DNA of 20,571 nt from a virus: the IMG/VR virus record IMGVR_UViG_3300042311_000849, positions 1 to 20,571 of that record; one strand, given 5' to 3'. The position numbers and the translations under genes are program-made. Shown here piece by piece: positions 7,491 to 20,571 of this stretch; position 1 is the stretch's first letter; each line of letters begins with the position of its first letter. The notes beneath the pieces are model-generated. The model saw only the letters and a list, made by a program, of their open reading frames with translations. It was not told the origin of the DNA and ran no database searches.

Positions 7491-7690
7491 ACACCCCATC
7501 ATGTGGCCGCTTGGAGTTGGCTCCTAAGACTCCCTGCCCGCCACTCACGGGCACAAAGCGCAGCATCGCTCAGGCTAGCAGTCTCCACATCGACAGCTTC
7601 TAGCCCATGGCGCAAAGGAGGGAGCCTTCAAAGGGACTCCATAATGCTGCGAACGAGCGTTGGCCCCTACGAGAGTGGGGCTTTCTTTTT
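7491..7690 (+). ncRNA. structured noncoding region, candidate small RNA or leader
   Basis: About 200 bases with no convincing gene but dense self-complementarity. CGCTT 7508-7512 pairs with AAGCG 7556-7560 and encloses GGAG-TTGG-CTCC (7513-7524) and TGCCCG-CCACTCA-CGGGCA (7535-7553), a small multi-branched fold. GGCTAG 7573-7578 pairs with CTAGCC 7600-7605. A GGAG/CTCC helix lies at about 7619-7640. The whole ends in an intrinsic terminator (7662-7690). The 7-base loop on a 6-pair stem recalls a tRNA arm, but T-loop and D-loop consensus bases and a CCA end are missing, so it is not a normal tRNA. It may be a processed small RNA or the structured 3' end of the VWA message. Confidence 0.4.
7662..7690 (+). 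terminator. intrinsic terminator after the MoxR/VWA region
   Basis: GCCCC (7663-7667), a bulged T, then AC pair with GT (7675-7676 side) and GGGGC (7677-7681) around a GAGA tetraloop (7671-7674), followed at once by TTTCTTTTT (7682-7690). A stable G+C stem, a GNRA loop and a U tract make this a confident rho-independent terminator. It ends the message carrying the VWA gene. Confidence 0.88.
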
Positions 7691-7703
7691 ATGGGGACTC
7701 GGT

Positions 7704-8153
7704 GTGGCGAAGAAGTACGCAGAGATCGATGCGCGATTGCTCAAGTGGCTGCGTAGGCAGCCCAAGACAGTCACCACTGCATCCATGCTCAAGGCACTCA
7801 AGATCACCGATCTAGTCACCCAGCGCCATCTATCGAGAAGGCTTGCCCTACTCGAAGACAAAGGCGCTCTTCGCTGCAAGCTCGAAGGTACGACTCGTGT
7901 TTGCGTGGTGGTGTTGCAAAAGATACCCACGACGCTATACAAATCACCTAACCCTCTCGCTTGGCATCGCAGCAACCAACCCACCATGAGCACCAACACT
8001 GTGGAACCAGCACGTACCAGCATCCCTGCATCGAACTCGGAAGAGTTCATCGCTGCTGGCGGCAAGATCCAAGTGATTCCCAGTGAGTGGAGCTCGAAGC
8101 CCTACTCAATCAAACCTGGCTCCGTCTTCGACTTCTTGGACGACGGAGACTGA
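7704..8153 (+). CDS. putative winged-helix protein, 149 aa
   Basis: The reading frame is open back to 7503, but that part would run through the intrinsic terminator. GTG 7704, with GGGGA six bases upstream, is the better start and gives MAKKYAEIDARLLKWLRRQP. Residues about 8-65 look like a winged helix (LLKWLRRQPKTVTTASML, then QRHLSRRLALLEDKGALRCK, then a basic wing). The rest is low-complexity Thr/Ser/Pro (about 88-110) followed by a short charged tail. Probably a small DNA-binding protein. Because it follows a terminator, it must be reached by readthrough, antitermination or a promoter I cannot see. Confidence 0.6.
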   Translation: MAKKYAEIDARLLKWLRRQPKTVTTASMLKALKITDLVTQRHLSRRLALLEDKGALRCKLEGTTRVCVVVLQKIPTTLYKSPNPLAWHRSNQPTMSTNTVEPARTSIPASNSEEFIAAGGKIQVIPSEWSSKPYSIKPGSVFDFLDDGD

Positions 8154-8171
8154 CCCCAAGGAGTTCTACCC

Positions 8172-8456
8172 GTGGCAAAGCGCAATCGTCTCGTTCTCGT
8201 GCACAAGACTCCGGCTCCCGCTGTCGAAGTCCAACAACCCAAGATGATCTACGGCTGGCAACCTGCCGCCGCTACGAACCAGATCCCGGTACACGTCGAG
8301 GACACGTACCTGCTTTACCAGGCGCACTCCTACTTGGGTCGCCGGGTGTCGATCGAAGAAGCCCGTGAGCTCTTCACCCGCATCGACATCCATACCCGCC
8401 AGCCAATCGAGCAGCCCAAGCCCAAGCCTTGGTGGGTGCGCCTGATCCGGCTGTAG
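8172..8456 (+). CDS. hypothetical protein, 94 aa
   Basis: GTG 8172 has a strong AAGGAG with good spacing. The product begins with a basic strand (MAKRNRLVLVHK). It has a Pro/Gln segment, a central YLLYQAHSYLGRRVSIEEAR helix region, and a Pro/Lys then Trp-Trp end (KPKPWWVRLIRL) that may sit at a membrane surface. No family is recognised. It lies directly before the lytic-transglycosylase-like gene and shares its transcription unit, so a link to lysis is possible but not shown. Confidence 0.6.
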   Translation: MAKRNRLVLVHKTPAPAVEVQQPKMIYGWQPAAATNQIPVHVEDTYLLYQAHSYLGRRVSIEEARELFTRIDIHTRQPIEQPKPKPWWVRLIRL

Positions 8457-8459
8457 ACT

Positions 8460-8482
8460 GGGCCTCCTTCACCGGAGAGCCC
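8460..8482 (+). promoter_or_regulatory. hairpin hiding the ribosome site of the lytic-enzyme-like gene
   Basis: GGGC (8460-8463) plus CTCC (8464-8467) pair with GGAG (8474-8477) and GCCC (8479-8482), with A8478 bulged and a six-base loop TTCACC. The GGAG strand is the only Shine-Dalgarno for ATG 8484. In this fold it is fully paired in an eight-pair, almost all G-C helix, so translation should be low unless the upstream strand is absent or unfolded. Confidence 0.6.
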
Positions 8483-8483
8483 C

Positions 8484-9026
8484 ATGGACACCCTGCTGCA
8501 CCAACTCAACACCGGCCCACTCACCGAGGGCCTGAAGCTGCTCCCCGCGCGCCTCGATACCGTGGCTGCCCGAGCCTTGATCCTCAAGATCGTCCTCAAG
8601 GAGTCCAACGGGGTCTACCGAGACCAGTTGGAGGCCAACGGCAAGAACACGGTCATCGGCCCAGCCTTGGGCCTGGCCCAGTTCGAACGAGGAGGCGCCT
8701 GTACGGCTCTCCTGAAGCATCCGCTCACGAAGGCCGACACTCTCCGGGTTCTGGCCCACTACGGCGTCACAGCCACGCCTGATGCGTTCTGGCGAGCCCT
8801 TGCCGTGAACGATGGCCTGGCCATGGCCGCGGCCCGGATCAACCTGGTCTGGCTCCCCGAGGCTCTGCCGGCGATCACCGACGCCGCGGAAAGCCACCGC
8901 CAGTACGTGAAGGCATGGCGACCCGGGGCCTGGGACAGAGGCTCGACCGCCGACCGCCAGAAATTGCTCGAGCGGTGGCAAGCTATCCACATCCGGGTGA
9001 ACGAGTACCTCGATTCCCTGGTCTGA
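8484..9026 (+). CDS. putative lytic-transglycosylase-like (lysozyme-superfamily) protein, 180 aa
   Basis: ATG 8484 with GGAG upstream. The core KESNG (Glu40 as candidate general acid), then GPALGLAQFERGGA (59-72), follows the ES...GLxQ signature of SLT-type transglycosylases, which cut the glycan strands of peptidoglycan. A C-terminal helical part (DGLAMAAARINLVW, then KAWRPGAWDR) completes a ~180-aa compact protein. I recall similar 'QFE-GG' proteins in phages of Pseudomonadota, often unnamed. No signal peptide or membrane span, so a cytoplasmic endolysin would need a holin. The gene is visibly richer in G+C than its neighbours, has a masked ribosome site, and ends at its own terminator. It could instead be a virion-borne enzyme. 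Confidence 0.6.
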   Translation: MDTLLHQLNTGPLTEGLKLLPARLDTVAARALILKIVLKESNGVYRDQLEANGKNTVIGPALGLAQFERGGACTALLKHPLTKADTLRVLAHYGVTATPDAFWRALAVNDGLAMAAARINLVWLPEALPAITDAAESHRQYVKAWRPGAWDRGSTADRQKLLERWQAIHIRVNEYLDSLV

Positions 9027-9040
9027 CCAACCCACCCCAC

Positions 9041-9068
9041 GAGACCGCCCGCAAGGGCGGTTTCTTTT
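9041..9068 (+). terminator. intrinsic terminator
   Basis: ACCGCCC (9044-9050), a GCAA tetraloop (9051-9054) and GGGCGGT (9055-9061) form a perfect seven-pair stem, followed by TTCTTTT. Flanking GAG/TTC bases can extend the helix. It closes the unit holding the lytic-enzyme-like gene, 15 bases after that gene's stop. Confidence 0.9.
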
Positions 9069-9083
9069 CGCCTAGACGAACCA

Positions 9084-9539
9084 GTGAAGACCACAGCCCG
9101 CGAACGCCTGATCATCGGCCTATCGATCCACGAGATCGTTGGAACCATCAACAGGACGATGAAAGACCACAAGCTGGTCTTCAAGCTCAGCTACCAAGAC
9201 AAGCATCGCCCAGCTTTCCTGGTTCGACGTAACGGTGGCCCGTTCGAGACCGTCATGCTTGCTGACCCGCGTGCTCACACGTTCTGGTCAGTGGCCATCT
9301 TCGATCCGACAACTGCTCAGATCATGCGTGAGTTGAACGAACAACTCCGCCAAGAATCGGCAGAGCTCCGTCTCACTTGCGCAAAGAACAGAGACGGCAG
9401 CAAACGCACCATGCTTCAGATCTACGTCGATGGATCCAAGCACACCGCCCTTACCATCATGGAAACCCGACGAGGAGGACACATCCTCGATTCGGATTTC
9501 GAACTCCCAGGAGAATCCAGTGATCCTCAACACAACTGA
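9084..9539 (+). CDS. hypothetical protein, 151 aa
   Basis: GTG 9084 follows the terminator directly, and the Shine-Dalgarno is weak. The product is a soluble alpha/beta-looking protein: helix (RERLIIGLSIHEIVGTINR), then strand-rich stretches (LVFKLSYQDKHRPAFLVRR), a helix at about 72-95, and further strands (TMLQIYVDG, ALTIMETRRGG). I recognise no family or catalytic motif. Its 3' end carries the AGGAGA ribosome site for the dCTP deaminase-like gene, which starts 20 bases before its own stop, so the two are probably coupled. Confidence 0.65.
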   Translation: MKTTARERLIIGLSIHEIVGTINRTMKDHKLVFKLSYQDKHRPAFLVRRNGGPFETVMLADPRAHTFWSVAIFDPTTAQIMRELNEQLRQESAELRLTCAKNRDGSKRTMLQIYVDGSKHTALTIMETRRGGHILDSDFELPGESSDPQHN

Positions 9540-16604: not shown

Positions 16605-18785
16605 ATGCGCGATCTTTCTACTGTTCCACACCACCCCATGATTGAGCAGATTGCCGGTGTGCTGAGCAACAAGACTCAGAACACTGACATGCCGTTCTTC
16701 CGGATCATGATCAGCTACATGCTCGCCAAGATGGCCTCGTGCCAGCGAGCCACGGTGATTACGAAGGATCGCGGAGAAGTCCCGGTCAACGTGTATGCGC
16801 TGTCCCTTGCTCTCTCCGGAGCGGGCAAGGGGCATAGCGTCGGCATCCTCGAAAACGAGTTCATGAAGGGATTCAAGGATCGCTTCATGAATGACACCTT
16901 CAACACTGTTGCCGAGAGCAGCATGTGGGAGATTGCCCGAGCCAGGGCACTTCGCAAGGTGTCGGATGAGAACGAAGAATTCTCTCGAGTCCAGACCGAG
17001 TTCAATCGCCTTGGGCCGATTGCTTTCACCTTCGACTCGGGCACGACTGCAGCCGTGAAGCAGATGCGCCAGAAGCTTTTGCTTGCTGGTTCGGGAAGCA
17101 TCAATCTGCAGATCGATGAAATCGGCAGCAACCTGATTGCCAACACCGAAGTCCTGAACGTGTTTCTTGAACTCTACGATCAGGGCATGGTGAAGCAGAA
17201 GCTCACCAAGAACACCAACGAGAACCTTCGCAGCGAAGAGCTCGACGGCAAGACCCCCACCAACATGCTGCTGTTCGGTACGCCGACCAAACTGCTCGAT
17301 GGTGGTAAAACTGAAGACGAGTTCTACTCGTTCCTCGAAACCGGCTACGGTCGTCGCTGCATCTTCGCTTACGGTGAGCGTCACCGTGCAGCGGAACACC
17401 TCACACCTGCCGAGGTCTATCAGCGCCTGACCGATCGTTCAAACCAGGCTCTGGTTGACCACTGGGCCACGCACTTCACCATCCTGGCTGACCCGACCAA
17501 GTTCAACTGGAAGATGACGCTGCCGGATGACGTGGCCATCGAACTGCTGGGCTACCGGATCGAGTGCGAACGTATCGCTGACAAGCTGCCTGAGCACGAA
17601 GACATCAAGAAGGCAGAGATCTCGCATCGCTACTTCAAGGTGCTCAAGCTCGCGGGTGCATTGGCCTTCTGTGACGAGAGTCTGGAAGTGTCCATGGATC
17701 ACCTGTACCACTCGATCAAGATCGTGGAAGAGTCAGGCAAGTCCTTCGAGCGGATCTTCTCTCGTGAGAAGAACTACGTAAAGCTGGCGAAGTACCTCTC
17801 GACCAGCACCAGCGATCTGACCCATGCAGATCTCAACGAGTGCCTGCCGTTCTACAAGGGCAGCCAGTCTGCGCGCAACGAAATGATGACCCTGGCCATG
17901 GCTTGGGGTTATCGCAACCACATCATCATCCGCAAGCAGTTCATGGAAGGCATCGAGTTCTTCAAGGGCGAAGCCCTGAAAGAGACGAACCTCGAATCCA
18001 TGCGGGTCTCGTACTCGGATCATGTGGCCTACAACTACCGCACGGACAACGTGCCGTGGGAACGCATCCACGAACTGACCCAGTACGACAACGGGGACGG
18101 TGGTGAATTCCACTGGATCAATCACGGACTCGACAAGGGTGGTACCGGCGACGGTCATCGCACTGAAGACAACGTGATCCCGGGCTTCAACATGATCGTG
18201 ATCGACGTGGACAAGGGCACTGATATTCGTGTCGCCCAGGAACTCCTCAAAGAGTACACCTGGCACATGTATACGACCAAGCGACACACTGATGATGCCC
18301 ATCGGTTCCGCATCATCCTTCCGATCAACTACACCCTTGAGTTGGATGCGGAAGATTTCCGTGATTTCATGTCCAACGTTTTTGCTTGGCTTCCGTTCGA
18401 AGTCGATGCACAAACGAACCAGCGAGCTCGCAAGTGGCTTAGCTGCAAGGGTCAGTACGGCTACAACGAGGGCAAGTTGCTCGATGCCCTGCAGTTCATC
18501 CCGCGCACTTCTCGGAACGATGAGTTCCGTGCCAACGTGGTGAAGCTGGAAAACCTCGACAACCTGGAACGCTGGTTCGCTCAGCGGATGGTCAACGGCA
18601 ATCGCAACAACCACATGCTGCGGTTCGCCATGGCATTGGTGGACAGCGGCCTGACCTACCAGGAAATCGAACGACGTGTTCTCTCGTTCAACCAGAAGCT
18701 CGACAACAAACTGAGCAACGATGAGTTGCAACAGACTGTTCTCGTTACCGCAGCCCGGAAGATCGCTAGCAATAGCCTTCCATAA
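16605..18785 (+). CDS. ATPase-primase fusion (DUF3987-like ATPase + AEP primase-like), 726 aa
   Basis: ATG 16605 lies five bases after the nuclease stop; its Shine-Dalgarno is weak. The N-terminal part is a P-loop ATPase of the DUF3987 type: SLALSGAGKGHS (67-78, Lys75) and Walker B LQIDE (168-172). From about 525 the sequence follows archaeo-eukaryotic primases: IVIDVDKG (Asp534, Asp536), TTKRHTDDAHRFRIILP (557-573, His561), then DAQTNQRARKWL (601-612). The end (663-720: GNRNNHML, then LVDSGLTYQEIERRV, then NDELQQTV) matches a PriCT-like helical domain. It would make primers and perhaps unwind DNA. The order ATPase then primase is the reverse of common primase-helicase fusions. Middle part (390-520) unassigned. 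Confidence 0.75.
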   Translation: MRDLSTVPHHPMIEQIAGVLSNKTQNTDMPFFRIMISYMLAKMASCQRATVITKDRGEVPVNVYALSLALSGAGKGHSVGILENEFMKGFKDRFMNDTFNTVAESSMWEIARARALRKVSDENEEFSRVQTEFNRLGPIAFTFDSGTTAAVKQMRQKLLLAGSGSINLQIDEIGSNLIANTEVLNVFLELYDQGMVKQKLTKNTNENLRSEELDGKTPTNMLLFGTPTKLLDGGKTEDEFYSFLETGYGRRCIFAYGERHRAAEHLTPAEVYQRLTDRSNQALVDHWATHFTILADPTKFNWKMTLPDDVAIELLGYRIECERIADKLPEHEDIKKAEISHRYFKVLKLAGALAFCDESLEVSMDHLYHSIKIVEESGKSFERIFSREKNYVKLAKYLSTSTSDLTHADLNECLPFYKGSQSARNEMMTLAMAWGYRNHIIIRKQFMEGIEFFKGEALKETNLESMRVSYSDHVAYNYRTDNVPWERIHELTQYDNGDGGEFHWINHGLDKGGTGDGHRTEDNVIPGFNMIVIDVDKGTDIRVAQELLKEYTWHMYTTKRHTDDAHRFRIILPINYTLELDAEDFRDFMSNVFAWLPFEVDAQTNQRARKWLSCKGQYGYNEGKLLDALQFIPRTSRNDEFRANVVKLENLDNLERWFAQRMVNGNRNNHMLRFAMALVDSGLTYQEIERRVLSFNQKLDNKLSNDELQQTVLVTAARKIASNSLP

Positions 18786-18804
18786 CCGTGAGTGATCGAC
18801 ACCC

Positions 18805-19029
18805 ATGAACTACACGAAACGGAGTCCGCAAGAACTCCAGAAGCTGGACAAGAAGATCTTGGAAGCCATCAATGATGGCGTTCGCAAGTTCGCACTCATC
18901 TCCTCGCGGGTCAGCACCCGCAAGGAAACCTACCCCGAACGACTGGTCGATCGACGCCTTCAGCATCTCCGAAAGGAAGGGAAGATCGAGTTCGTTCGCG
19001 GGCTCGGTTGGCGTGAGGTCGCGGCCTGA
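18805..19029 (+). CDS. small winged-helix protein, 74 aa
   Basis: ATG 18805 has a poor ribosome site, 19 bases after the primase stop. The product reads as a single winged helix: KLDKKILEAINDGVRKF (helix 1), ALISSRV, then PERLVDRRLQHLRKEGKIEF (recognition-like helix and first wing strand), then RGLGWREV. It could bind DNA at the origin or regulate the operon. Its TGA shares its A with the next ATG (TGATG), so expression of the Sak4-like gene is coupled. Confidence 0.65.
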   Translation: MNYTKRSPQELQKLDKKILEAINDGVRKFALISSRVSTRKETYPERLVDRRLQHLRKEGKIEFVRGLGWREVAA

Positions 19030-19790
19030 TGCAAACGACCAACGACAACCTGATCTTGGTGGCAGGCCCTTCTGCCACTGGCAAGTCCGCATCTCTCCGG
19101 AACCTCAAGGATCCGGAAGGTGTGATGTACCTGAACTGCGAGAGCGGCAAGAAGTTGCCGTTCCCGAACAAGTTCGCCACGTTCGTCATCACCGATCCGT
19201 ACCAGGTCATCGAAGCGTTCTCGCATCTCGCTGACTCGGGCTACGTGATCAAGCATCCGCAGCTCGGTAAGGAAGTTCGCATCCATACCGTCGTCACCGA
19301 CTCGCTGACGTTCCTGCTCGACATGTTCGAGTCGAAGTACATCTTCAACTCGGCCGATGGCCAGAAGGCGTGGGCTGCGTTCCAGCAGTTCTTCAAGACG
19401 CTGATGCAAGAGAAGGTGGCAGCTGCCGAGTGCAATGTCATCTTCACCGCTCACACGATCACGGAAGTGAACAAGAGTGAGATGGCCATGGAAACCAAGG
19501 TGCCGGTCAAGGGTGCCTTGAAGAACAACGGCATCGAGGCATACTTCAGTTGCGTGGTCACTTCGAAGAAGGTGCCCATCAAGGAACTGGAATCCTATGG
19601 TTCCGATTTGCTGGACATCAGCGATGAAGACCGCGCGCTTGGTTTCAAGTACGTCTTCCAGACCAAGCTCACCCGGGACACTACTCACGAGCGGATTCGT
19701 TCGCCCATGGGTATGTTCACCACCGCTCAGACCTTCATGGACAACGATGTTCAGAAGCTGATCGATCACCTCCACAAGTACTACAAGTAA
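19029..19790 (+). CDS. Sak4-like RecA-fold ATPase (single-strand annealing), 253 aa
   Basis: ATG 19029. Walker A GPSATGKS (13-20), a Walker B-like strand TVVTDS ending in Asp91, and a later strand VIFTAHT (137-143) with a His resembling the RecA motif-3 region. AAA_24/Sak4 proteins of phages are short RecA-like cores that promote annealing of single strands, helped by a cognate SSB; the next gene is a probable SSB, which supports this call over other small RecA-fold ATPases. With the Cas4-like nuclease (15602) and resolvase (20538) it forms a recombination set. Confidence 0.8.
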   Translation: MQTTNDNLILVAGPSATGKSASLRNLKDPEGVMYLNCESGKKLPFPNKFATFVITDPYQVIEAFSHLADSGYVIKHPQLGKEVRIHTVVTDSLTFLLDMFESKYIFNSADGQKAWAAFQQFFKTLMQEKVAAAECNVIFTAHTITEVNKSEMAMETKVPVKGALKNNGIEAYFSCVVTSKKVPIKELESYGSDLLDISDEDRALGFKYVFQTKLTRDTTHERIRSPMGMFTTAQTFMDNDVQKLIDHLHKYYK

Positions 19791-19802
19791 GGAACCAGAA
19801 CC

Positions 19803-20534
19803 ATGAGCAACAACCCCTTCGGCAACCTCGGCACTGATGGCCTCGAAGAAGCACGCGACAGCCTCGGTGGCGGCGGTGCACTCGAGAGCGGCCTCTACAC
19901 CGGCAAGATCAAGCTCGCCTACGCTGGCGCTTCTTCGGGCGGCGCTCGCTTCCTGGCCATCGTCGTGGACGTGAATGGTCGTGACTACCGCGAGACGCTG
20001 TACGTCACGAACAAGGCCGGTGAGAACTACTACACCCGCGGCGACAAGAAGATCCCGCTGCCTGGCTTCACCACGGCGAACGACATCGCCCTTCTCTCGA
20101 CTGGCCAGCCGCTTGGCGCGCAGGACATCCAGGAGAAGGTCGCTGAGATCTACAACTTCGATGAGCGCAAGGAAATCCCGACCAAGGTGCAGGCCGTCAC
20201 CAGCATCATGGGCAAGTCGATCACCCTCGGCATCCTCAAGGTCATCGAAGACAAGACCAAGAAGAACGAGACCACGGGTACGTACGAGCCGACCGGCGAG
20301 ACGCGCGACGTGAACGTGATCGACAAGGTGTTCCACACCGAGACCGGCAAGACGGTTTCCGAGTTCACGACGAAGGCCGAGAAGGCTGAGTTCAAAGACC
20401 GTTGGGCCGAGAAGCACACGGGCAAGACGCAGAACAAGGCCAAAGGCGCTACTGGCAAGCCAGGTGTTCCGGGCCAGGCCGCAGGCATCCCGGGTGGAGC
20501 CAGCAAGGCTCCGTCCAAGAGCCTGTTCGGGTAA
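19803..20534 (+). CDS. probable phage ssDNA-binding protein, 243 aa
   Basis: ATG 19803 has TAAGGA upstream. Starts MSNNPFGNLG. Residues about 25-175 are strand-rich and look like an OB-fold-sized domain (LYTGKIKLAYAGASSGGARF, then VVDVNGRDYRETLYV). Residues about 205-243 form a Gly/Ala/Pro/Lys-rich flexible tail ending in KSLFG. Many SSBs end in a short acidic tail with a final Phe; here the tail is basic and the Phe is next to last. Sak4-like genes are often followed by an SSB, which is the main support. Should coat single strands during replication and help annealing. Confidence 0.7.
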   Translation: MSNNPFGNLGTDGLEEARDSLGGGGALESGLYTGKIKLAYAGASSGGARFLAIVVDVNGRDYRETLYVTNKAGENYYTRGDKKIPLPGFTTANDIALLSTGQPLGAQDIQEKVAEIYNFDERKEIPTKVQAVTSIMGKSITLGILKVIEDKTKKNETTGTYEPTGETRDVNVIDKVFHTETGKTVSEFTTKAEKAEFKDRWAEKHTGKTQNKAKGATGKPGVPGQAAGIPGGASKAPSKSLFG

Positions 20535-20537
20535 GCC

Positions 20538-20571
20538 ATGAAGATCCGAGTGCTCGGCATGGATCCATCCC
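20538..20571 (+). CDS. start of a RuvC-like Holliday junction resolvase gene (partial)
   Basis: Only the first 11 codons are inside the window: MKIRVLGMDPS, then cut at 20571. The strand-plus-loop RVLGMDPS is the usual first motif of RuvC-like resolvases (ILGIDPG/S), where the Asp binds catalytic metal. It starts three bases after the SSB gene, in a position fitting a recombination operon. The call rests on one motif and on context; other RNase H-fold enzymes begin in a similar way. Confidence 0.6.
   Translation, partial: MKIRVLGMDPS

Follow-up and report, generated by a model that had tools for sequence, protein, structure and literature searches.

Background

In phage T4, the late promoters (TATAAATA) of the lysozyme gene e lie in the DNA that encodes the 5' strand of a hairpin; long early transcripts form this structure, with lysozyme synthesis reduced 100-fold, and the late messages are devoid of it (PMC3014915). 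Translational coupling by RNA unfolding is a different arrangement, established for several gene pairs including one at a spacing of +52 nt; it weakens with distance and may be reduced by structure located just after the stop codon (PMC12548453). Unfolding couples the gene pairs rpmI-rplT of E. coli, VII-IX of phage f1 and coat-lysis of phage MS2, in each of which the ribosome-binding site of the downstream gene is masked beside the end of the upstream one (PMC12548453).

Here we analyze a hairpin that precedes a lysozyme-like gene in the viral record IMGVR_UViG_3300042311_000849, the whole of which (20,571 nucleotides) is referred to below as the window. As in T4 gene e, a phage lysozyme-type gene has its Shine-Dalgarno (SD) sequence locked in a short hairpin. 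In T4, late promoters lie within the 5' arm and late starts have been mapped; no such promoter was found here and, unlike in T4, an upstream stop codon is positioned 3 nt before the 5' arm. With the three coupled gene pairs the locus shares a masked downstream ribosome-binding site next to the end of the upstream gene; it differs from them in the +27 nt spacing and in having a tiny hairpin that is wholly contained in the gap, and here the arrangement is predicted from the sequence. The hairpin is most likely an ordinary coupling element and is possibly incidental. The elements of the locus are the following.

8172..8456, + strand: upstream open reading frame (ORF) of 94 aa, GTG start, stop codon TAG at 8454-8456; proposed coupling partner
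8460..8467, + strand: 5' arm of the hairpin, GGGCCTCC, whose first base lies 3 nt beyond TAG 8454-8456 and whose CTCC half is the anti-SD
8468..8473, + strand: loop, TTCACC
8474..8482, + strand: 3' arm of the hairpin (GGAG, bulged A8478, GCCC), predicted pair probabilities 0.90-1.00
8474..8477, + strand: the only SD, GGAG, fully paired by prediction, p(unpaired) ~0.002-0.003
8484..9026, + strand: lysozyme-like gene of 180 aa, phrog_3108 family, assigned from profile, annotated homologues and predicted fold
9041..9068, + strand: terminator-like hairpin of 10 pairs with a GCAA loop, followed by TTTT; ends the proposed transcription unit

A lysozyme-like gene in a replication region

Judged by gene content and order, the window is the replication region of an N4-like phage (Schitoviridae): the N4-type primase (phrog_2135) is ~60% identical to those of Schitoviridae, and the order of the replication genes matches that of Axy12, RHph_X2_28B and Pastis. 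The record ends at 20571, short of the expected gene for the giant virion RNA polymerase. Another contig, IMGVR_UViG_3300042569_000709, encodes a primase end that is 100% identical over 214 residues (window 18144-20571), and may represent the same phage, extending the window downstream.

The genes for a VWA-type protein and a dCTP deaminase, whose products are 38% (over 215 residues) and 59% identical, respectively, to those of the Achromobacter phage Axy12, overlap by 4 nt in that phage; in RHph_X2_28B a single small gene lies between the two. In the window, ~1.9 kb (7503-9429) with four ORFs, including the lysozyme gene, lies between them. The GC content of the lysozyme gene is 66%, compared to ~55% in the surrounding sequence, and its GC3 is 0.83 compared to ~0.7, and the segment 7503-9429 looks like an inserted cassette.

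The sequence-only reading had taken the gene at 8484-9026 for a cell-wall enzyme, an assignment that is upheld by the presence of homologues in phage lysis cassettes and by a predicted fold of the lysozyme superfamily. Residues 7-151 of the 180-aa product match the phrog_3108 profile with an E-value of 3e-24. This family carries no function assignment in its own library; several of the homologues are annotated as lysozyme or endolysin and are placed in lysis or tail-fibre regions, and in some of the records a spanin gene is found directly downstream of the phrog_3108 gene. The phrog_3108 lysozymes of Litunavirus YH30, Burkholderia phage AH2 and Achromobacter phage Mano are homologous to the product, at ~28-45% identity, and have in common with it the GPAxGxxQFE motif and the invariant glutamate; within 46 family sequences, E40, Q48, G59-P60-A61 and Q66-F67-E68 are invariant. 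The AlphaFold model of the product is confident (pLDDT 94). A direct Foldseek search of the PDB with this model yielded no significant match (best E 0.25), and structural re-alignment of the Foldseek candidates returned lysozyme-superfamily enzymes throughout (Z 8.2-10.5), including MltE, phiKZ gp144, GH19 chitinases and muramidases. Family membership and predicted fold make the lysozyme-like nature of the product well supported. Two other nearby in-frame starts, GTG 8562 and TTG 8577, were rejected because neither is preceded at short distance by an SD-like match and because use of either would cost the protein family-conserved residues. The phrog_3108 relatives are mostly located in lysis or tail-fibre regions, with a spanin or holin gene adjoining and with overlapping starts; unlike in these relatives, the gene here lies between replication genes and its SD is locked.

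The hairpin and the masked Shine-Dalgarno sequence

The 27-nt gap between the upstream stop and the lysozyme ATG reads ACT GGGC CTCC TTCACC GGAG A GCCC C. Its two complementary stretches, GGGCCTCC and GGAG(A)GCCC, form the arms of a hairpin (8460-8482) that consists of eight Watson-Crick pairs (8460-8463 with 8479-8482, and 8464-8467 with 8474-8477), a loop of six bases and a single bulged base, A8478, with a predicted folding energy, for the hairpin alone, of -14.1 kcal/mol. When the hairpin was folded in six contexts with lengths from 30 to 301 nt, the pair probabilities of the stem were 0.90-1.00 and the probability that the GGAG is unpaired was ~0.002-0.003. This GGAG, 6 nt from ATG 8484, is the sole SD-like match found before the lysozyme start. 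Folding bore out the original proposal that the SD is paired with CTCC in an eight-pair stem; the count of eight pairs stands, and the bulged A8478, absent from that description, has to be added to it. The existence of a strong SD-masking hairpin in front of a lysozyme-type gene is thus confirmed by prediction.

Two other identities of this element were considered. As an intrinsic terminator it was rejected, there being no T run after the stem (GCCCCATGG). The promoter hairpins of the N4 virion polymerase have three-base loops, and this reading was set aside because the loop here has six bases and the stem contains a bulge.

Proposed opening by a terminating ribosome

The 5' arm begins 3 nt past the stop codon of a co-oriented ORF, a feature that the sequence-only reading passed over, and therefore a ribosome terminating at this codon offers a simpler route to opening than release in the style of T4. 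During termination, with the stop codon in the A site, the ribosome occupies ~9-10 nt of mRNA downstream of that codon, enough to disrupt the 5' arm by prediction. When the RNA was withheld stepwise from the 5' side, the predicted SD exposure stayed at or below ~0.016 for every free RNA with its start at 8464 or before, and reached 0.26 for RNA from 8465, 0.31 from 8467 and 0.69 from 8474; withholding the RNA to ~10 nt past the stop raised the predicted exposure ~100-fold. The geometry is that required for coupling, with the upstream ribosome ending near enough to disrupt the structure at the downstream ribosome-binding site.

On the basis of these predictions, we propose that the hairpin would bar direct entry of ribosomes at the lysozyme start, and that a ribosome terminating at TAG 8454-8456 would take up the beginning of the gap into its mRNA channel and so break the arm 8460-8467. 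The GGAG at 8474-8477 would then be exposed, allowing the same or another ribosome to initiate at ATG 8484, and translation of the lysozyme would be coupled to that of the 94-aa upstream ORF. For this scheme, we infer translation of both ORFs, their presence on one message and a coupling that operates. We give an even chance to the hairpin being a device of translational coupling by RNA unfolding that ties the lysozyme to the upstream ORF. The arrangement is more likely of this known and ordinary kind than a timer of the T4 gene e type.

A good SD (AAGGAG) precedes the GTG of the upstream ORF by 8 nt, the codon-position GC composition of this ORF is coding-like (0.66/0.40/0.77), and the terminator-like hairpin that follows the lysozyme gene is consistent with a shared message. 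This latter hairpin, at -20.3 kcal/mol, outranks all other 30-nt folds on the window's + strand and was missed by the terminator scan because its stem runs into the T run. Several considerations weigh against coupling. No homologue of the upstream ORF turned up in phages or viral contigs, so that its translation is a prediction; occlusion as strong as that observed can occur by chance in a GC-rich stretch; the hairpin is absent in the distant relatives; and coupling is known to weaken with distance and may be reduced by structure just downstream of a stop (PMC12548453).

If the coupling is true, an imported lysozyme is barred from direct translation and tied to the upstream gene by just 27 nt. 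The locus would then provide a small case, simple to test, in which a gap is bridged by coupling, in contrast to the overlapping genes of many relatives. The hairpin alone opens no new question.

How unusual the occlusion is

The second contender, less probable yet to be taken seriously, is that the hairpin is an incidental by-product of GC-rich, apparently imported DNA, which may lower lysozyme output somewhat and has not been selected as a switch. The elevated GC and GC3 of the lysozyme gene are in line with this explanation, as is the lack of the hairpin in distant relatives. When the gap was shuffled with the SD kept, an equally stable hairpin formed in 0.4% of trials and SD exposure was as low in 2.6%, a frequency at which one case among the ~28 starts in the window is unsurprising; in random gaps of 56-70% GC, exposure this low was reached in 0.3-0.7%. 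Along the window's + strand, 33 places have a fold within 30 nt that is at least equally stable. Given these 33 places and the ~28 starts, we estimate the chance of at least one such occluded start in a window like the present one at 10-50%. Against an incidental origin, only 2 of the 273 other starts with an SD, taken from the window and the fetched loci, are equally occluded (3 of 274 with that of the lysozyme itself, whose SD is less exposed than at any other start tested in the window), and the gap is short, with a stem that stops precisely around the SD. The occlusion is rare for a single gene and is no proof of selection on the hairpin.

Possible release on late messages and other candidate routes

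A more elaborate scenario has an N4-like phage importing a foreign lysozyme into its replication region and keeping it silent by means of the SD-masking hairpin, which would open only at a defined stage, through late transcription or a regulated upstream ORF. We consider this unlikely; if stage-specific opening were true, lysis in Schitoviridae would be timed through the translation of endolysin, by a device with an evolutionary origin separate from that in T4.

The sequence-only reading had favored a release like that of T4 gene e, and had suggested that attack on the cell wall would thereby be delayed. In such a scheme, long middle-stage messages would carry the closed hairpin, and a late message that starts inside the 5' arm would lack it and be translated. 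The geometry allows such a mechanism in that RNA starting at 8465 or later would expose the SD, at least partly, and the best -10-like hexamer, TAGACT at 8454-8459, which overlaps the stop codon, would start RNA at 8465-8468. However, this hexamer matches the consensus at four of six positions, and hexamers as good are expected by chance ~5 times per kb; its -35 element matches at three of six positions with a 19-nt spacer, and the GC content of the region is 69%. A search of the complete window for the T4-type late promoter TATAAATA, with up to one mismatch permitted, gave no match, and no consensus sigma-70 promoter was called near the hairpin, in scans whose consensus covers the late and middle promoters of N4-like phages poorly. 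The proposed delay fares no better, as the gene resides among replication genes, outside any late lysis cassette, with no holin or spanin recognized beside it and no strongly hydrophobic, holin-like ORF adjoining it; coliphage N4, for its part, has its lysis genes, 60-63, together in a single cassette (PMC12642591). Timing of the T4 kind is thus quite improbable here.

Hairpins that enclose an SD are common targets of trans-acting or temperature control, and a phage or host RNA-binding protein, a small RNA or temperature might open or stabilize the present one. We regard such control as very improbable, given that no Rfam match was found in the window and that the sequence points to no particular factor.

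Readthrough of TAG 8454-8456 into an upstream ORF-lysozyme fusion, stimulated by the hairpin 3 nt downstream, is hardly credible: the two ORFs share a frame, what separates them (8454-8483) is the TAG and an open gap of nine sense codons (TGPPSPESP), and of the 21 stops checked no other is a TAG, but an in-frame open 27-nt gap is expected by chance in about 1 of 5 cases, the family members begin at the same N-terminus without an extension, and the lysozyme gene is equipped with a separate SD and ATG. A reassigned TAG code was rejected, given that the reading frames of the conserved genes are uninterrupted and terminate with TGA or TAA.

Relatives

Blastn searches in phages produced nothing alignable at the DNA level, viral contigs contain no exact copy of the hairpin, no relatives of the two flanking genes were found in phages or viral contigs, and a genome scan with a single protein revealed no close DNA relative. 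Since the homologues found are all distant, scoring of compensatory changes is precluded. The family profile had no match in five N4-like viral contigs, which are fragmentary and were searched with no positive control.

Occlusion equal to that of the lysozyme start was observed in none of the 142 relatives with a recognizable SD. An upstream frame, defined by the simple rule of at least 60 open codons and not by curated annotation, is present in 143 of 153 relatives; the lysozyme gene overlaps it in 72 of these and starts within 10 nt in 20 more (92 in total), the commonest spacing being -4. This context, in which the starts of lysozyme genes appear closely linked to the upstream gene, fits coupling. 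In several relatives (for example, L067 and L106), a terminator-like hairpin with a T run precedes the lysozyme gene and leaves the SD unmasked; for the latter reason, these hairpins were rejected as representatives of the same element. In a further N4-like contig (L012, ~3565), a 14-pair hairpin directly precedes an ATG and contains an SD-like GAGG inside the stem, and may be either a terminator or a second masked start.
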